Part shown: piece by piece, positions 3,622 through 34,361 of the stretch | Layout: each line of letters opens with the position of its first letter | How positions within the stretch are numbered: the stretch's first letter is position 1 | IMG/VR virus record: IMGVR_UViG_3300030085_004825 | Span: 58,392 to 122,391 of that record | Direction: 5' to 3' (one strand) | DNA from: a virus | Length of the DNA: 64,000 nucleotides | Notes under the pieces: generated by a model | What the model was told of the DNA's origin: nothing | Databases searched by the model: none | The model's input: the letters and a program-made list of their open reading frames with translations, nothing else | Position numbers and translations under genes: made by a program

Positions 3622-5820
3622 ATGTCTGAAATTATTATTTCTCCTGGAGTAGACGTAACAGAAAATGATCAAACTTTTAATTTTCAACAACCTGCTCAAG
3701 CTGATGTTGCTATTATAGGCCCTACAGTAAGGGGAAAAATTAATATTCCTACTATAGTTACTTCATATGAAGATTATATACAAAAATATGGTGATGATTT
3801 TTTAAGTGGGAGTAGTAATTATAACTATTTTACTTCTTTAGCAACGTATAACTTTTTTCAGAATTTAGGAGATGCACCTGGATCAGTCTTAATAACTCGT
3901 GTTGTAAGTGGTAGTACAGTAACAGATTGGACTCCTGCTACATCTTCTAGAATAGAAACTTCTTTTACAGAAATACAAGCTTCAGCAAGTGTTCCTTTTA
4001 CACCATTTTTTCCATCATCATCATTTTTTATTTCCCAAGGTGCTTCTTCTGATAATCTTACAGGAACTTTTTCAATAAATGGTATAACTTTAGTTATTAC
4101 AGGTAGTGCTCATAATTCTTCTTATAGTGGAAACTTTACTAATACTTCTACTTTAATATATGTCCCTTCAGGTTCAAATGTTGCTAATACGGTAATCTCA
4201 GCTTCAGAACATTTAGCTGCTAGTAGTTCTTTACCAGCTTATAGTTCTTCTTTAGGAAATATATCATCCTCAGCAGACACAAATAATTTATTATTAACAT
4301 ATATTGGACAAAACTCTGCAGGTATAGGAAATAACCAAGTATTTACTTCAGGAAGTACTGCTAGTGGTAACATTACATATACTTTTTCAGGTGGTGTAAA
4401 TACAGAAGCATTTGTGCTAGAAACTATATCTGAGGGAGAAATAATGAATAGTGAGGGTCCTACAGGACCAGATGGTACTTTATTAAGTGGGTCTGAAAAT
4501 AATTACAGATACCAAATAACATCTCCAAATGTAGAAGATGGGACTTTTAATTTACTTATTAGAAAAGGTAATGATACTACAACTTTTCCTTCTGTATTAC
4601 ACACAATAGGTCCTATTTCATTAGATCCTAATTCTTCAAATTATATTGAAAAAGTAATAGGAAACCAAATTCATACTTTAACCCAAGATAGTACAACAAG
4701 TGAGTATTTCATTCAAACCACAGGCAATTACCCTAACAGATACCCTACTATTAGAGTTAAACAAGTAAATGCTACTACTGTAGATTATTTTAATAATGAT
4801 GGAACTGTAAAATCTGAATATACAAGTTCAATGCCTCTTACTCAAAGTGGGGTATTTGGAGGAGCTTTAGGAAATAATATACCAACAAATGCTGCTGGTA
4901 ACTATTATGAAAATATTACTGATTCAAACATTCAAGGTCTTTCTCCTAGTAACTATTCTGAATCTATTTCTTTATTATCTAATAAAGATGCTTATAGATA
5001 TAACACTATAATCACTCCTGGATTAATAGCTGATCCTAATTTTTACCCTAATAGTAATATTATTGTTTCTCAATTAATATCTATGGTAGAAAATAGAGGA
5101 GATTGTATGGCTATAATAGATATTTCTAAATACAATGAAAACACTGGCCAGATAATAGCTAATGCTCAAACTAGAAATACTTCATATGCTGCTACTTATT
5201 GGCCTTGGGTGCAAACACCTCTTCCTAATAATCTTTCTACTTTAGTATGGGCTCCTACATCTACTTTTATCCCTGGAGTATATGCCTTTAATGACTCAAA
5301 TGGTTACCCTTGGCTTGCCCCTGCAGGCATAAATAGAGGAATTATTAGTAATGCTACTCAAACTGAAAAAGTATTAACTCAAGGTATTAGAGATACATTA
5401 TATCAAAATAGAATTAATCCTGTGACTACTTTTATAACTCCTCAAGGGAATTCTATTGTTGTATTTGGACAAAAAACTTTACAAAAACGTAATACTTCTT
5501 TAACACGTATTAATGTAAGACGTTTGTTAATTAATTTAAAAAATTACATATCTCGGGTAGCAAATGAATTTGTTTTTGAACAAAATACCCCTGAAACTAG
5601 AGAAGATTTTCTTTCTCAAATTAATCCTTATTTATCTCTTGTCCAACAACAAGAAGGTTTAACAGCTTTTGAAGTAATAATGGATGAAACAAACAATACC
5701 CCAGAAATTATAGATAACAATAAATTAGTAGGTCAAATTTACATTCAACCTACACGAACAGCTGAATTTATTTTATTAGATTTTAATATCTTACCAACAG
5801 GAGCAGAATTTCCTAGTTAA
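3622..5820 (+). CDS. Tail sheath protein, gp18-like (paralog 1)
   Basis: A 732-aa contractile sheath subunit. The N-terminus (ISPGVDVTENDQTF, then AIIGPTVRGKINIPTIVTS) is the typical sheath start that exchanges strands with neighbours. A Ser/Thr-rich surface insert occupies about residues 110-260. The C-terminal core has YAATYWPWV, PGVYAFND, APAGINRG, VVFGQKTLQ, RINVRRLLINLKNYI and the closing QIYIQPTRTAEFI, which form the inner sheath layer. A second complete sheath gene follows 47 nt downstream. A late-type motif precedes it. Confidence 0.9.
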   Translation: MSEIIISPGVDVTENDQTFNFQQPAQADVAIIGPTVRGKINIPTIVTSYEDYIQKYGDDFLSGSSNYNYFTSLATYNFFQNLGDAPGSVLITRVVSGSTVTDWTPATSSRIETSFTEIQASASVPFTPFFPSSSFFISQGASSDNLTGTFSINGITLVITGSAHNSSYSGNFTNTSTLIYVPSGSNVANTVISASEHLAASSSLPAYSSSLGNISSSADTNNLLLTYIGQNSAGIGNNQVFTSGSTASGNITYTFSGGVNTEAFVLETISEGEIMNSEGPTGPDGTLLSGSENNYRYQITSPNVEDGTFNLLIRKGNDTTTFPSVLHTIGPISLDPNSSNYIEKVIGNQIHTLTQDSTTSEYFIQTTGNYPNRYPTIRVKQVNATTVDYFNNDGTVKSEYTSSMPLTQSGVFGGALGNNIPTNAAGNYYENITDSNIQGLSPSNYSESISLLSNKDAYRYNTIITPGLIADPNFYPNSNIIVSQLISMVENRGDCMAIIDISKYNENTGQIIANAQTRNTSYAATYWPWVQTPLPNNLSTLVWAPTSTFIPGVYAFNDSNGYPWLAPAGINRGIISNATQTEKVLTQGIRDTLYQNRINPVTTFITPQGNSIVVFGQKTLQKRNTSLTRINVRRLLINLKNYISRVANEFVFEQNTPETREDFLSQINPYLSLVQQQEGLTAFEVIMDETNNTPEIIDNNKLVGQIYIQPTRTAEFILLDFNILPTGAEFPS

Positions 5821-5867: not shown

Positions 5868-7841
5868 ATGGCAAATTTCACACCCTCACCAGGAGTAACC
5901 CTTAATGAACTAGACCAGACGTTTCTTACTAGCCAACCTATCCAAGCAGGTGCAGCTATTATAGGCCCTACAGTAAAAGGACCTAATGAATTACCTACTT
6001 TAGTAACCTCTTATTCAGAATATCAAACTACATTTGGAGATATTTTTATTAGTGGTGGTAATTCTCACTCATATTTAACATCTATAGCAGCTTATAATTA
6101 TTTTAATTATGGTGGTGAATCACTTTTAGTTACTCGAGTAACAAGTGGTTCTTTTTCTAGTGCTACATCAAATGTCCCCTCAGGTGCAGAATCTGGTATA
6201 TTATCTACAAATGCAGATGCTTTATTATCTTCATTTACTAGCGTAAGTGCCTCAGCAGGTACATATACTAGTTTAGGAACCACAGGTAGTATATCAGGTA
6301 CAGGAGCAGTATTATCTGTTACTTTAGATACTACTTCTTCGATAAGTTCAGTTACTGTAACCTCAGGAGGATCAGGATATGCAATTGGAGAAACTTTATC
6401 AGTAACAGGAAGTTTAATTACAGGAGGAGTAACAGATTTAATATTTACTTTAAATGCTGGTGATATTGTTAACCAAAATGTATTTACTTTAGAAACAATA
6501 AGTGAAGGTGTTATTATGAACAATGGAACCCTAGAAACAGGAGGCACACTATCTTCAGGATCAAAAGATAATATAAGATGGGAAGTTACTCAAGTAAATA
6601 CTGGGTCTGGTAATTTTAATTTAATTGTAAGAAGGGGGGATGATAATACTACTAACAAAGTTATTCTTGAATCATATAATGGAATTAATTTAGATCCTGA
6701 ATCTCCAAGATTTATTTCTAAAATAATAGGAGACCAGAAATTAGCCTATAATGCTACAACTAACCAAATGGAGACAACAGGTAACTACCCTAACAGGTCC
6801 CGATTTGTTCGTGTAAAAAGTGTAAATTCTTTAACCCCCAATTATCTAAACTCCCTTGGAGAAATTTCAGATTCTTCTTTTACTAGTAAGTTACCTTTAG
6901 TAGGTAGTGGATCTTTTGCTAATGGTGTAGGTGATGTAAATACTACAATAAATTTATATGATGCTATAAACACTAATACTCAAGGATTAGCAGGTAGTGA
7001 TTATGATAACATGATAAACTTACATGGAAATCGTGAAGCTTACCAATTTAATCTTTTATTTACTCCTGGATTATTAAATGATACTCATCCAACCCAAATA
7101 ACAAACATTATTTCTAAAACTCAAGAAAGGGGAGATAATATGTTTGTTTTAGATTTAACAAAATATGACGGTAATTTAGCTGATGCTATAGGAGAAGCCC
7201 AAGGAAAAGATACTTCATATGCTGCTACTTATTGGCCATGGGTTCGTATAATTGACCCCACAACTGGAAAACATATATGGTCACCAGCTTCAACTTTAAT
7301 TCCTGGTGTATATGCATTTAATGATAAAGTAGCTGCCCCATGGTTTGCCCCAGCAGGTATAAACAGAGGAGGATTATCTAGTGTTCTACAAGCTAAATTT
7401 AAATTAACTCAAGGTAACAAAAATGACTTGTATGAAAATAACATTAACCCAATTGCTACATTCCCTAAACAAGGAGTAGTTGTATTTGGACAAAAAACAC
7501 TTCAAAAACAAGCATCCGCTTTAGATAGAGTTAATGTGCGACGTTTAATGATTGAATTAAAAAATTATATCCGTCAAATAGCAGACACAGTAGTATTTGA
7601 ACAAAATACTTTAGAAACTAGAGGATCTTTTCTTTCTAGAGTAAATCCATATTTAGATGGTATCCAACAAAAACAAGGACTACATGCTTATAAAGTAGTA
7701 ATGGATGAAACAAATAATGGCCCTGCTGTTATTGATCAAAACCAATTAGTAGGTCAAATTTACATTCAACCTACACGAACAGCTGAATTCATTTCTTTAG
7801 ATTTTATTTTATTACCAACAGGAGCAGAATTCCCAGCATAA
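5868..7841 (+). CDS. Tail sheath protein, gp18-like (paralog 2)
   Basis: A 657-aa paralog of the preceding sheath protein, complete at both ends. It shares the N-terminal SPGVTLNELDQTF and AAIIGPTVKGPNELPTLVTS and the full C-terminal core (YAATYWPWV, PGVYAFND, VVFGQKTLQ, NVRRLMIELKNYI, TRTAEFISLDF). The middle insert (about 105-210) differs from paralog 1, being Gly/Ser/Thr-rich. A 46-nt stretch at 7744-7789 is identical to 5723-5768. Both copies probably reach the virion, or one may be conditional; sequence alone cannot say. Confidence 0.9.
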   Translation: MANFTPSPGVTLNELDQTFLTSQPIQAGAAIIGPTVKGPNELPTLVTSYSEYQTTFGDIFISGGNSHSYLTSIAAYNYFNYGGESLLVTRVTSGSFSSATSNVPSGAESGILSTNADALLSSFTSVSASAGTYTSLGTTGSISGTGAVLSVTLDTTSSISSVTVTSGGSGYAIGETLSVTGSLITGGVTDLIFTLNAGDIVNQNVFTLETISEGVIMNNGTLETGGTLSSGSKDNIRWEVTQVNTGSGNFNLIVRRGDDNTTNKVILESYNGINLDPESPRFISKIIGDQKLAYNATTNQMETTGNYPNRSRFVRVKSVNSLTPNYLNSLGEISDSSFTSKLPLVGSGSFANGVGDVNTTINLYDAINTNTQGLAGSDYDNMINLHGNREAYQFNLLFTPGLLNDTHPTQITNIISKTQERGDNMFVLDLTKYDGNLADAIGEAQGKDTSYAATYWPWVRIIDPTTGKHIWSPASTLIPGVYAFNDKVAAPWFAPAGINRGGLSSVLQAKFKLTQGNKNDLYENNINPIATFPKQGVVVFGQKTLQKQASALDRVNVRRLMIELKNYIRQIADTVVFEQNTLETRGSFLSRVNPYLDGIQQKQGLHAYKVVMDETNNGPAVIDQNQLVGQIYIQPTRTAEFISLDFILLPTGAEFPA

Positions 7842-7855
7842 AAAAATAAAAAAAT

Positions 7856-7871
7856 AATATTTATAATTAGA
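7856..7871 (+). promoter_or_regulatory. Late-type promoter motif AATATTTATAATTAGA
   Basis: A slightly diverged copy of the late motif, ending 18 nt before the tail tube ATG. Confidence 0.55.
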
Positions 7872-7889: not shown

Positions 7890-8381
7890 ATGCCCATTTT
7901 AGATAATAACCAAATATTTTATACAACGTTTGAACCTAAACAAACAAATCGTTTTTATTTAAGTTTAATACCTGGTATTCCTGCTTACTTAGTAAAAGGA
8001 GTAGGTGCCATATCTCTTACACAAAACGCTGTAGCACTTAACCATATTAACCTACAACGTTATGTAAAAGGTAAAACTATTTGGAATACTATTTCATTTA
8101 CTCTATATGATGCTATTACACCTTCAGGAGCTCAATCAGTAATGGAATGGGTTCGTTTAGGGCATGAATCAGTAACAGGTAGAGATGGTTATTCAGATTT
8201 TTATAAAAAAGATCTTACTTTTAACGTAGTAGGACCTGTAGGTGATTATGTTTCTGAATGGGTAATAAAAGGGGCTCAAATCACAGAAACTAGTTTTGGT
8301 GATTATAGTTGGGATGATGATGGAACTCCTGTAAATATAAACGTAACAGTTCAACCTGATTATTGTATATTAAATTACTAA
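7890..8381 (+). CDS. Tail tube protein, gp19-like
   Basis: A 163-aa protein directly after the sheath genes, matching T4 gp19 in length (163 aa). It forms the inner tail tube. Typical features are the N-terminal FEPKQTNRFYLSLI, the central GKTIWNTISFTLYD, and the C-terminal ITETSFGDYSWDDDGTPVNINVTV, a pattern common to Hcp/gp19-fold tube proteins. A late motif lies upstream and a strong terminator follows at 8401-8430, closing the neck-to-tube block. Confidence 0.88.
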   Translation: MPILDNNQIFYTTFEPKQTNRFYLSLIPGIPAYLVKGVGAISLTQNAVALNHINLQRYVKGKTIWNTISFTLYDAITPSGAQSVMEWVRLGHESVTGRDGYSDFYKKDLTFNVVGPVGDYVSEWVIKGAQITETSFGDYSWDDDGTPVNINVTVQPDYCILNY

Positions 8382-8400
8382 AAATTAAAAATTATTTTTA

Positions 8401-8430
8401 AAAGCTCCACTTATGTGGGGCTTTTTTTTT
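8401..8430 (+). terminator. Rho-independent terminator after tail tube gene
   Basis: The stem AAAGCTCCAC (8401-8410) pairs with GTGGGGCTTT (8415-8424) across a TTAT loop, with one G-U pair, and is followed by a run of ten T. It separates the tail block from the T9SS protein gene. Confidence 0.85.
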
Positions 8431-8459
8431 GGAATCTAAAGAAAAAATTTGTATATTTA
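8428..8459 (+). promoter_or_regulatory. Bacteroidota-type promoter TTTG-N20-TATATTTA
   Basis: TTTG (8428-8431) and TATATTTA (8452-8459) are 20 nt apart, matching the known Bacteroidota -33/-7 layout (TTTG and TAnnTTTG). The same spacing recurs at nine other gene starts here. It lies just after the terminator and 15 nt before the ATG at 8475, so this gene is expressed independently of the late tail genes. Confidence 0.65.
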
Positions 8460-8474
8460 AGAAAATTAAAGGTT

Positions 8475-9683
8475 ATGCAAAATACATTAAATTTATTCTT
8501 TTTATTAGTTTATAATATTATATGGTCTCAATGTCCTTATTTAGGACCTGATCAAGTATTACCAACAAATACACAATTAACAACATTATTTGCTGATACA
8601 AGCAATTGTATTGAATATCCTAAAAAAATCATTGATTATAATGTATATGAAATACCATATACACAAATAGAAAATAATGGAATTGAAGTTTACGTTTGGA
8701 ACCACACAGATGCTATAAATATAGGCTTTGATTTTACTTTTTATGAAAACACATATTCAGAATTTTACATATACCGAAAAGGTAGAATTGGATTTTCCCA
8801 ACCAAATAATTCAGGGTTTGAAACTGATGATCCCATTCCTTGGGCTAATATGTACTCTCCTAAAAATTCTATTTTAATAACTGGACGTTATGGTGATACT
8901 CAAGATGGGGGTTCTTTTAAATATGAAACTCAAGGTAGTGCCCCATATAGAAAATGTATTATTTCTTACGATGTACCCTATTATACTAATCAATGGTTAT
9001 GTCCCGAAATATTTAAATTTCATATTATATTATATGAAACAACAAACATAATAGAGCATTTTATAGATTCTAAACCCTTTGAATGTTCAAATTTAGGTAG
9101 TATACAAGGAATACAAAATATTAATGGAACTATAGCAACCACAGTACCAGGTAGAAATGGTGAATTATTTGAGGCATATGAAGAAGCATGGAGATTTGCA
9201 CCACAAGAAATAAAATATTATCCTGAACTAGAATGGTATGAAGTAGGTAACCCTAATATATTAGAAACAGGTGAAGAAATAGAAGTAACACCAACAATAA
9301 ATGGCACTTATTATACATGTCATCCTAAATATGAAAATGGATATATTACACCTAACCTTGATACTATATTTATACAATTAACTCCACCTCATAATATTGT
9401 TTCACCTATTGAAGAAGAATTAACTATTGAAAGTTATTATATACCTAATGCTTTTACACCTAATGGAGATGAATATAATAATTCATGGGGGCCTGTTTTT
9501 TCACCTAGATTTGAAATAAAAAACTATCATTTAGAAATTTATAATAAATGGGGAAATAAAATTTGGGAATCATATAATCCTAATATAAAATGGAGTGGTA
9601 CTAATTATTTAGAAAATATTTATATTTGGAAAATAGATTTAAACGAAAAAAGTTTTTACGGGCATGTAACACTTATTAAATAG
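8475..9683 (+). CDS. Secreted protein with T9SS type B sorting domain (CHU_C / gliding motility-associated C-terminus)
   Basis: A 402-aa protein. The start at 8475 is preferred over an upstream in-frame start at 8415, which lies inside the terminator. Residues 1-20 (NTLNLFFLLVYNIIWSQ) form a signal peptide. The middle has a beta-rich module with YIYRKGRIGFSQ and KFHIILYETTNIIEHFI. The last ~85 residues match the T9SS type B C-terminal domain: YIPNAFTPNGDEYNN, then LEIYNKWGNKIWES, W-S-G-T, and a final GHVTLIK. In flavobacteria this domain directs outer-membrane export by T9SS. Between a terminator and tail genes, with its own host-type promoter, it looks like a moron. Whether it ends on the host surface or the virion is unknown. 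Confidence 0.82.
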   Translation: MQNTLNLFFLLVYNIIWSQCPYLGPDQVLPTNTQLTTLFADTSNCIEYPKKIIDYNVYEIPYTQIENNGIEVYVWNHTDAINIGFDFTFYENTYSEFYIYRKGRIGFSQPNNSGFETDDPIPWANMYSPKNSILITGRYGDTQDGGSFKYETQGSAPYRKCIISYDVPYYTNQWLCPEIFKFHIILYETTNIIEHFIDSKPFECSNLGSIQGIQNINGTIATTVPGRNGELFEAYEEAWRFAPQEIKYYPELEWYEVGNPNILETGEEIEVTPTINGTYYTCHPKYENGYITPNLDTIFIQLTPPHNIVSPIEEELTIESYYIPNAFTPNGDEYNNSWGPVFSPRFEIKNYHLEIYNKWGNKIWESYNPNIKWSGTNYLENIYIWKIDLNEKSFYGHVTLIK

Positions 9684-9687
9684 TAAT

Positions 9688-9700
9688 ATATTTATAACAT
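9688..9700 (+). promoter_or_regulatory. Late-type promoter motif ATATTTATAACAT
   Basis: A shorter copy of the late motif, only 2 nt before the ATG at 9703. It restarts late transcription after the T9SS gene. Confidence 0.45.
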
Positions 9701-9702
9701 AT

Positions 9703-10074
9703 ATGAAAATAGAAAATCTACGTACATTAGTAAAAGAAGAGTTAGAAAAAACTCTAAACGAAGACTATCAAGATAAATTTAAAATGGTAGGTACTTTAAT
9801 TACTAATATTAAAGAACGCCCCCAAAAAGAAATTTATTCTGATATTAGAGCCATCCCTGGTATAACAGTAATATCTTCCACAGAACCCTTAGAATATAGT
9901 GAACAAGATAAAACTAAATTTAAAACCATCCTTTCGGTTAAAGTAGATGGTTATCCTTGGATTACAAAAGGTGGATTTAATAGAGAAAAATTAAAAGATA
10001 TAGCCCAAGACATAAAACAAGTACCAGGAGTTAAAGCTTTCTTTACAAAGGATGAAAATATTTCTACCCTTTAA
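9703..10074 (+). CDS. Small late protein with amphipathic N-terminus
   Basis: A 123-aa protein. Residues 1-20 (MKIENLRTLVKEELEKTLNE) form an amphipathic helix like those starting several other small late proteins here (59182, 62753, 63364). Residues about 25-115 look like a compact alpha/beta domain (GTLITNIKERPQKEIYSDIR, then TILSVKVDGYPW and DIKQVPGVKAFF), with two similar halves of the type strand-helix-IPG/VPG-strand. The function is unknown; a head- or tail-associated role is inferred from the late promoter and neighbours. Confidence 0.5.
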   Translation: MKIENLRTLVKEELEKTLNEDYQDKFKMVGTLITNIKERPQKEIYSDIRAIPGITVISSTEPLEYSEQDKTKFKTILSVKVDGYPWITKGGFNREKLKDIAQDIKQVPGVKAFFTKDENISTL

Positions 10075-31562: not shown

Positions 31563-34361
31563 ATGAAAAAGTTTTTATTATTATTATTGTGTTTAACTAC
31601 ATTTTTTAGTTTTTCACAAGAAGTAGCACCAGTTACTTTTAGATTAGATTTAAATGAGGTTATAGATAATGTACCTAATTACGGAGAAGCTCAAGTATTT
31701 ATACAAACTAATGTTGCTAATTGGGTTGATATACCAATGGAAGATATAGGTGGAAATGGCATATATAGAAAAAATATTAATATAACCCACCCAGAAGATG
31801 AAAATATAGATGTATTTTATAGATTTAAAGTAACATCTTTTGGAACTAATGGTTTACCCTATACTTTATGGGAAGGAGGAGTAAATTCAGACCCAACCTG
31901 TCTTTTTGATCCTAGTACTCAAGGTTTAGCCGGGGGAGATATAAGGAAAGTAGTAGTACCACAAGAACTAATTGATAATGGTACCTATGTTAACCCAACT
32001 GGAGAATTTAAATTAACGCATTGTTTTAATGTATGTGGTAATGCATCATGCCCACCAGAACCTTGTATAAATGGTTTAACTTCAACTAATGCTTATCAAC
32101 AATGCATTAATGGAGGATCCCAAGCTCTTATAGTTTTTGAATGGCAAACTGAATGTGAAATACAATCTGTTGAATATACTAATGCTGAAGGAGTAGGCCC
32201 ATTTACATACCCAGTTAACCCTGATGCTTTAAATTTTGGAGTATATGCAGGAACACCGAATATGCCACCAAATTGGTCTGTAGAACACCAATTAACAGTT
32301 AATTTTGCTGATGGAACCCAATCTGCTCCTATTTTTTATACCCCACAACCATGCATCCCAGGTTGTACTGATCCTAATTCAGTATCATATAATCCATGGG
32401 CTAATCAAGATGATGGTACATGTTTAAATGCCGGTGGGGGAGAAAATTGTGACCCAGGAGATTATGAAATAACAATATCGGTAACTTTAGATAATTGGCC
32501 AGGAGAAACATCATGGACATTAGTGTCGTTGTCTGATGGAGGAATTCCTATACAAATGCCACAAGGAGAATATGATTATTCAGATGTAGGTCAAACATAT
32601 GATTATACAGTTTGTATTGATGGTCAAGGAGTTGAACTCATTATAAATGATTCATATGGTGATGGATTAGTAGGTGGTAATACTCCTGGAAATGTTGTTA
32701 TAACAGACTGTGATGGTAATATTTTATGGACTTTAACTGATGTTGCACCAAATCTTGATTTTGACTATGTAGCATATTCAGGACCTGTATTTGGAAATGC
32801 GTGCAGTGGAATAACACCTGTTCTAGGATGCACAAACCCAGCATATCAAGAGTATGACCCTACAGCAACAATAGATGATGGTAGTTGTGCAAATTTACAT
32901 GTATATGGATGTATAGATACTACGGCTTATAATTACAATCCTAATGCTACTATGCAAGAAATAATTCCTACTTGCGATTATGAGTTGTGGATTGGAGATG
33001 CCGCTGCTGATGGTTGGGGTAATTCATACATTGGTATAACCCAAGGAACAAACCAATGGACATTTACAATGGGGCCAGGTTCTTACAGTCAAACATTCCC
33101 TTTAACATTAGACACAGATAAACCTGTCGAAGTTTATTATTTTGAAATAGCGGCTCCACAACAACAAGCACAAGAAGTTGAATTTCAAACATGGCAAAAT
33201 TCATTTAAACTAACTAACGCAGATGGAGTAGTATTAATGCATGAAGGTTCTAATCCTTTTGCAAATAATGGACTAGGAGCTCTACAGCCATTTGAAGGTC
33301 CATTTTATGAAAAATATCAAGCAATACCTTTTTGTGGTGATTTATGTGTTCCTGTCATACTTGGATGTACTGATTCAACATCACTAAATTACAACCCAAA
33401 CGCAAACACAGATGATGGTTCTTGTATTCCAATTATATATGGTTGTACTAATGAATTAGCATTTAATTACAACCCTGATGCTACAGTAGATGATGGTAGT
33501 TGTATACCAACTATTTATGGATGCACCGACCCATCTTCTTGGAATTACAACCCAGATGCAAATGTTGATGATGGTTCATGTATATATTTTGGTTGTACTG
33601 ACTCTACAGCTTTAAATTATAATCCTGCTGCAAATGTAGATAATGGAACTTGTATATACCCAATATATGGCTGCACAGATCCTGAAGCATTTAATTACAA
33701 CCCTGAAGCAAATGTTGATGATGGTTCATGTATACCTGTAATTTATGGTTGTATGGATCCTACAATGTTTAATTTTAACCCTATAGCAAACACTGATAAT
33801 GGTTCATGTATACCTGTAATATTTGGTTGTACTGACTCTACAGCTTTAAATTATGACCCAATGGCTAATACAGATAATGGAACTTGTATATTACCACTTA
33901 CAGGGTGTACAGACCCAAATGCTTATAATTACGACCCAACAGCAAATGTACCAGATTCAACAGCATGTTTATATGATGCAGGTTGTATTGGGGGGCCTGG
34001 TGAACCTTATTGGTTAAATAATCCATGTTTTGCTTGGGTAATAGATGTTGATATTTATTGTTGTGAAGTAGAATGGGATGCTTCATGTCAATCAATGTAT
34101 AATTACTGTGTTGATGGTTGGCCTGTAGGAATAGATGAAATGGATATAAATGGAATTATAGTTTACCCAAACCCAACAGATAATATTTTAAACATTGAAA
34201 CTCATTTATCATTTAAATATGAATTAAGAGATGCAATGGGTAAATTAGTATTAACAGGAGAAGATAAACGTTTAGAATTAGGAAAATATGATGATGGAGT
34301 TTATTTTTTAACTATAATTCATAACGAGAAAAAATTTAATAAAAGAATCATAAAACAATGA
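31563..34361 (+). CDS. Large secreted protein with Cys-rich GCTD repeats and T9SS type A sorting domain
   Basis: A 932-aa protein. Residues 1-18 are a signal peptide ending FSFSQ. Near residues 260-800 are about eleven repeats of the form GCTDPxAxNYNPxANxDDGSC, whose Asp/Asn spacing suggests calcium-binding disulfide-stapled units. Two beta-rich modules (about 295-410 and 475-590) interrupt them. The last ~75 residues match the T9SS type A domain (Por_Secre_tail): IIVYPNPTDNILNIE, then LRDAMGKLVLTGE, and GVYFLTIIHNEKKFNKRIIKQ. It should be exported through the host T9SS and anchored or released at the surface. It starts 2 nt after the membrane protein and overlaps the barrel gene by 4 nt. Such a protein is unusual in a phage. 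Confidence 0.85.
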   Translation: MKKFLLLLLCLTTFFSFSQEVAPVTFRLDLNEVIDNVPNYGEAQVFIQTNVANWVDIPMEDIGGNGIYRKNINITHPEDENIDVFYRFKVTSFGTNGLPYTLWEGGVNSDPTCLFDPSTQGLAGGDIRKVVVPQELIDNGTYVNPTGEFKLTHCFNVCGNASCPPEPCINGLTSTNAYQQCINGGSQALIVFEWQTECEIQSVEYTNAEGVGPFTYPVNPDALNFGVYAGTPNMPPNWSVEHQLTVNFADGTQSAPIFYTPQPCIPGCTDPNSVSYNPWANQDDGTCLNAGGGENCDPGDYEITISVTLDNWPGETSWTLVSLSDGGIPIQMPQGEYDYSDVGQTYDYTVCIDGQGVELIINDSYGDGLVGGNTPGNVVITDCDGNILWTLTDVAPNLDFDYVAYSGPVFGNACSGITPVLGCTNPAYQEYDPTATIDDGSCANLHVYGCIDTTAYNYNPNATMQEIIPTCDYELWIGDAAADGWGNSYIGITQGTNQWTFTMGPGSYSQTFPLTLDTDKPVEVYYFEIAAPQQQAQEVEFQTWQNSFKLTNADGVVLMHEGSNPFANNGLGALQPFEGPFYEKYQAIPFCGDLCVPVILGCTDSTSLNYNPNANTDDGSCIPIIYGCTNELAFNYNPDATVDDGSCIPTIYGCTDPSSWNYNPDANVDDGSCIYFGCTDSTALNYNPAANVDNGTCIYPIYGCTDPEAFNYNPEANVDDGSCIPVIYGCMDPTMFNFNPIANTDNGSCIPVIFGCTDSTALNYDPMANTDNGTCILPLTGCTDPNAYNYDPTANVPDSTACLYDAGCIGGPGEPYWLNNPCFAWVIDVDIYCCEVEWDASCQSMYNYCVDGWPVGIDEMDINGIIVYPNPTDNILNIETHLSFKYELRDAMGKLVLTGEDKRLELGKYDDGVYFLTIIHNEKKFNKRIIKQ

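Follow-up and report, generated by a model that had tools for sequence, protein, structure and literature searches.

A tail-operon site of a T4-like phage and its relatives is recurrently filled by a gene for a type B cargo of the type IX secretion system

Between the tail tube gene and a tail-terminator-like gene of a T4-like myovirus we identified an inserted gene that encodes a type B cargo protein of the type IX secretion system (T9SS). The phage is represented by a 122,391-base IMG/VR virus record (IMGVR_UViG_3300030085_004825), and positions 58392-122391 of this record make up the stretch of 64,000 nucleotides analysed here, termed the window. The gene is located at positions 8475-9683 of the window on the plus strand. 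The same site is filled in some related phages and empty in others. The host group is most likely Bacteroidota, and we think it probable that the cargo protein is displayed on the surface of the infected cell via the host T9SS.

The sheath protein of the phage has its nearest isolate relative in Flavobacterium phage immuto (48% identity), which infects Flavobacterium sp. LMO8. Two tail-sheath genes (phrog_23) are arranged in tandem at 3622-5820 and 5868-7841, whereas a single one is annotated at the equivalent place in phage immuto. The left flank of the insert is the tail tube gene (7890-8381, plus strand; phrog_4542), which has a late motif at 7858. The right flank (9703-10074, plus strand) is termed tail-terminator-like on the basis of a weak match only (E 0.02); this gene adjoins the tube gene in relatives with an empty site. 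The neighbourhood also includes a baseplate-hub-like gene (phrog_150), and farther along the window are a DNA polymerase-like gene, gp32, a 5'-3' exonuclease, a DnaB-type helicase, both ribonucleotide reductase subunits and an amidase. As a test for lysogeny the phage record, which may be incomplete, was searched for integrases, with zero matches.

The cargo gene is AT-rich (27.5% GC) and codes for 402 amino acids, with an ATG at 8475 and a stop codon that ends at 9683. A GTG start at 8415 (422 amino acids) was rejected, as it lies inside the terminator tail and upstream of the promoter and overlaps both. The assignment to the type B cargo proteins, made before from the sequence alone (the sequence-only reading), was confirmed by profile searches. 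Residues 323-391 match PF13585 (CHU_C) with an E value of 9.6e-10 and 38.9 bits, which is over the curated Pfam cut-off of 27, and the domain is placed at the very C-terminus. Comparison with TIGR04131, which had been suggested as a check, gave a divided answer: the protein scan matched residues 323-401 with 30.3 bits (E 3.4e-7), below the cut-off of 35, and the search of the genome's reading frames yielded 34.7 and 35.3 bits, the higher value with the neighbours of the gene included. The TIGR04131 score is at the cut-off and not clearly above it. Taken from PF13585, TIGR04131 and the structure model, the sorting domain comprises residues 320-402 (9432-9680, plus strand).

A putative Sec signal peptide is formed by residues 1-19 (MQNTLNLFFLLVYNIIWSQ; 8475-8531, plus strand), as indicated by the sequence, a model helix at residues 2-16 and the relatives. 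This hydrophobic helix ends with WSQ, and the usual lysine is missing from the segment; a signal-peptide-like segment is found at the equivalent position in all aligned relatives. The passenger (N-domain) between both ends (residues 20-300; 8532-9374, plus strand) shows homology to the corresponding domain of type B proteins from Bacteroidota, and residues 20-300 match no Pfam family. An AlphaFold model generated with 75 sequences has a mean pLDDT of 87.3 and shows the N-terminal helix, followed by a passenger rich in beta structure and a beta domain at the C-terminus, in agreement with the internal beta-rich module that had been proposed. An earlier model of a 654-amino-acid relative, generated with seven sequences, was useless (pLDDT 39). 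The top viral structural matches of the model are two phage proteins named 'Gliding motility-associated, C-terminal domain'. A fold search of the PDB with the good model revealed generic Ig-like matches only (TM about 0.15), and Hoc of phage RB49 is among the weak matches. The sequence search of the PDB returned picornavirus 2A proteases, which are chance matches only (E 0.058 or worse).

The cargo gene is preceded by an intrinsic terminator (8400-8425, plus strand), located after the tail tube gene and the strongest one in a 20 kb scan. The sequence-only reading had described a strong terminator at this place, and it is indeed present. Since relatives with an empty site have it as well, it is part of the ancestral tube operon and predates the insert; it was therefore rejected as a component of the moron. 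The terminator scan listed no terminator of the moron's own between 9683 and the next gene.

At 8428-8459 on the plus strand the cargo gene has the motif TTTG-N20-TATATTTA, which we take to be a promoter of the Bacteroidota -33/-7 type. Sites of this type are found upstream of 5 of 131 genes (0.44 expected in shuffles), gp32 being one of the others. The motif is conserved in the leaders of L003, L004, L148 and the L011/L283 type, and L121 has similar leaders. Both neighbours of the cargo gene have the late motif TATTTATAA, which is located 11-32 bp before 19 genes of the genome on the coding strand (for instance at window positions 168, 3594, 5847, 7858, 9689, 11144 and 13602). Genome-wide, TATTTATAA is followed by an A-rich stretch, and the core TATTTATA of the motif corresponds to the T4 late box TATAAATA in reverse complement. 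The copy that belongs to the next gene (9689-9697, plus strand) has been retained beyond the insert. Upstream of the cargo gene the late motif is absent: a weight matrix built from the sites before the 19 genes scored at best 6.7 there, compared to 11.5-21.5 on these sites. The motif evidence thus agrees with the earlier proposal of a host-type promoter that is unlike the late motifs of the neighbouring genes. Among 45 distinct cargo leaders, 36 have a host-like pair and lack the late motif, the pair being a loose pattern counted without shuffle control. In six leaders, all of which belong to a three-gene version of the insert, the late motif lies 11 bp ahead of the ATG. This suggests that timing may differ between lineages and that early timing is not general.

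Viral contigs were gathered by their tube or terminator-like gene, and presence of the cargo gene was not required. Altogether, 89 loci with both flanking genes were obtained, which include a few duplicates of one contig (the window and its sister contig are each represented twice). The site is empty in 58 of the 89 loci, with a gap of 77-131 bp, and filled in 31, with a gap of 1.3-2.6 kb. All 31 filled sites contain either a T9SS type B gene coding for one chain of 400-820 amino acids or a three-gene cassette with the sorting domain on the last gene. Empty sites retain both the terminator and the next gene's late promoter, and the insert is located exactly between the two. The gene is therefore an addition between two neighbours that adjoin each other in relatives, and it has its own host-type promoter motif; both features bear out its description as a moron inside the tail operon.

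On a tree of the tube and terminator-like proteins, presence and absence of the insert change about 13 times, and at least 10 of these changes are forced by well-supported branches. The tree contains 126 contigs (70 filled, 56 empty) and is presence-biased, since many of the filled ones were found via the cargo search. Close relatives can differ in the state of the site (L010, for example, is empty among filled ones), and in the diverged phage L303, with a tube protein of 61% identity, a cargo gene is again located after the tube gene. About a dozen gains or losses at one site suggest that these viruses probably redecorate the surface of the infected cell. An empty site does not mean zero T9SS cargo, because a 156 kb relative with an empty tube site (L180, G029) encodes a type B protein of 257 amino acids elsewhere, near 76.8 kb.

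The cargo gene is under purifying selection. Its dN/dS is 0.31 compared to L003 (68 synonymous and 101 non-synonymous changes) and 0.26 compared to L004; the tube and terminator-like genes have values of 0.05-0.09. The dN/dS of gene 10117 compared to L003 was discarded, as the L003 reading frame is cut by the contig end. Identity to L003 is 86.7% in the C-terminal domain (CTD), 92% in the last 50 residues and 80.8% in the passenger. The patchy gain and loss and the low GC content would also be expected if the gene were a neutral passenger, that is a host gene fragment gained by chance and not yet lost. We regard this as highly improbable given the dN/dS values, the frame that is open in the copies examined and the repeated occurrence of one gene family at one site.

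At least 245 viral contigs encode the cargo family. About half of 74 newly fetched loci are located at the tube site, the rest in unrelated neighbourhoods of other large phages. Among 50,697 phage records, only two uncultured phages of 635-642 kb match the family. These two, LR745206.1 (L165, 635 kb) and LR756502.1 (L166, 642 kb), have four type B (CHU_C) matches each and in addition one to three type A matches; LR745206 holds a full-length relative of the window protein with 39% identity.

The sequence-only reading had left room for a virion protein besides a surface protein. The product would then be a tail decoration or adhesin made together with the tail genes, and its CTD would only help the virion to touch the T9SS or gliding machinery. 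The location between the tube and tail-terminator-like genes is compatible with this, as is the late-type promoter in the three-gene lineages; beta-rich Ig-like folds are moreover common on virions, as in the weakly matching RB49 Hoc. A virion component would, however, hardly be lacking in roughly two thirds of the close relatives, whose tail genes are the same, and the family is also found outside tail operons in other phages. The signal-peptide-like N-terminus and the absence of the late motif here likewise argue against it, and the PHROG search of the cargo protein matched no family, virion families included. The comparative evidence favours export to the surface, and we consider a virion protein quite unlikely.

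The closest bacterial homologues are type B proteins of 800-1430 amino acids from Bacteroidota MAGs, which in their best segment are about 58-63% identical to the 654-amino-acid member of the family. An N-domain tree places the phage sequences almost in one group, with two bacterial ones inside; the lineage of the window is on a long branch and its exact place is unsure. CHU_C was matched in 65 of 75 aligned members, some bacterial rows being cut before the CTD. Type B CTDs require PorP/SprF-like shuttles for secretion, which deliver them to the surface, and one shuttle may serve several substrates, orphans included (PMC12618676; PMC9143113). Orphan substrates without an adjacent shuttle gene exist (PMC12618676). 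A search of the phage record for PorP/SprF found none, and six sampled bacterial genomes with homologues have 10-22 such genes each. Since the phage brings no shuttle, one of the host would be used.

For display on the surface we propose the following course. The host-type promoter would drive transcription of the cargo gene during infection, probably before that of the surrounding tail genes. The protein would be exported by Sec, and its CTD would hand it to the host T9SS translocon, a host PorP/SprF-like shuttle being assumed to pick it up. It would then stay anchored outside the infected cell, where the passenger would alter the cell surface. Flavophage adsorption is tied to gliding and T9SS genes, with SprB and RemA as possible receptors (PMC13288928; PMC7345892); SprB travels on the gliding track via SprF (PMC12635249). 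For this reason a block of adsorption is the likeliest benefit of display, although superinfection exclusion is proposed here only tentatively. The passenger might cover T9SS-delivered surface adhesins that serve as phage receptors and thereby stop adsorption of a second phage, or the cargo might compete with receptor adhesins for a common shuttle.

In the extreme case of such competition the passenger would be nearly irrelevant: the CTD would saturate the host PorP/SprF shuttles and keep SprB-like adhesins from the surface, so that gliding or receptor display would stop. The CTD is more conserved than the passenger, the phage has no shuttle, and a single shuttle is known to interact with several substrates (PMC12618676). 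Yet the passenger would then be needless, although purifying selection acts on passengers too and they are conserved between phages, and we judge this form of surface display unlikely. The main alternative to the adsorption block is adhesion for spread, a kind of surface display in which superinfection plays no part. Infected cells or their debris would adhere to one another, to surfaces or to uninfected hosts and thereby help progeny to reach new cells. Such a role is suggested by the SprB repeat, a repeat of the gliding adhesin SprB, in 35 of the 75 aligned members and the PKD-like domain in 32; the protein of the window has neither, and for a phage with no known lysogenic phase the protein would pay off only by acting on the right cells, before or after lysis. 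We consider adhesion for spread rather unlikely.

Use of the host T9SS is also indicated by a second T9SS cargo of 932 amino acids (31563-34361, plus strand) with a type A sorting domain at residues 867-930. This domain scores 39.9 bits with TIGR04183 (cut-off 23) and 34.7 with PF18962 (cut-off 27). The protein has a signal-peptide-like start and GCTDP..NYNPxANVDDGSC repeats, its gene lies between the ribonucleotide reductase genes and the amidase, and it is also present in G030 and G031 (78-79% identity) and G022 (56%). That one phage carries cargoes of both classes is better explained by use of the host T9SS than by chance. A type A sorting domain (46.5 bits) is also found in gp015 of the isolate Flavobacterium phage immuto_2-6A (NC_055915.1, 13186-13419), a 'cohesin domain' protein; the tube-hub site of this phage is empty. 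It offers a culturable test case for phage T9SS cargo.

Phage-encoded T9SS cargo as such is already known. Cryophage has, like the phage of the window, T9SS sorting domains on phage genes that are variable between variants, and its authors propose superinfection exclusion or strain competition for the type A cargo (Bellas et al., 2020, PMC7468147). It differs in the type A CTD (on endoglucanase, GH39 and PA14 proteins) and in being a 76 kb phage, and neither a tail-operon hotspot nor type B cargo nor the shuttle question is described for it (PMC7468147). In crAss-like phages, T9SS sorting domains of Bacteroidetes phages were likewise reported, once on an ORF with BACON repeats; these are gut phages with another passenger, and no recurrent insertion site is described (PMC6949934). 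The two phage proteins with the gliding-motility name mentioned above, the BFVD entries A0A6J5NJX2 and A0A6J5L8Z9 of uncultured Caudovirales phages, match our model with their C-terminal parts (E 2.6e-11 and 7e-8). They are known only from database annotation and are short (187-199 amino acids), a length that resembles the last protein (P3) of the three-gene form.

Bacteroidota type B substrates (TIGR04131/PF13585; SprB, Fjoh_3952 and the class of the orphan Fjoh_1123) share with the phage family the signal-peptide-like start, the beta-rich passenger and the C-terminal CHU_C domain, and SprB repeats are a feature of many family members too. The phage proteins differ from them in being phage-encoded, in their length (400-820 amino acids versus 800-1430 in the nearest bacterial kin) and in the lack of an accompanying PorP/SprF gene. 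No paper on a phage type B cargo was found in the open-access literature. The novelty lies in the tail-operon site, which is fixed and recurrently filled, in the type B class, in the forms with one and with three chains and in the combination with a type A cargo. As flavobacterial T9SS and gliding genes have repeatedly been implicated in phage adsorption, the type B hotspot bears on how infecting phages change the cell surface. With this shuttle-less family the identity of the host shuttle and the effect of display on adsorption can be tested directly, and its members are natural short type B substrates for studies of shuttle specificity.

The three-gene form is found in the related phages L124, L117, L126, L112 and L355-L398. 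P1 usually has 197 amino acids (up to 632) and P2 has 185-195; both have signal-peptide-like starts and no sorting domain. In all 35 distinct cassettes P1 and P2 end in a shared motif, roughly x-P-I-x-H-N/D at the stop codon, and N or D at the last position covaries between the two (L375, L393). In each of the 31 cassettes with a readable P3, this protein has the type B CTD. An HN ending occurs in none of the 132 ORFs of the window's phage. Judged from these sequences, the three-gene form resembles a surface structure of several subunits that are linked by a tag. A broader possibility, which we hold with considerable reserve, is that large Bacteroidota phages maintain, at a fixed tail-operon site, a mobile family of T9SS type B surface proteins of their own. 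Exported as a single chain, or as three chains that leave the cell separately and are joined via the shared C-terminal tag, these proteins might form a surface structure specified by the phage and moved by the host gliding/T9SS machinery during infection. Among the P2 matches listed for 295 genomes from the same class as the bacterial homologue, almost all lie within much longer frames.
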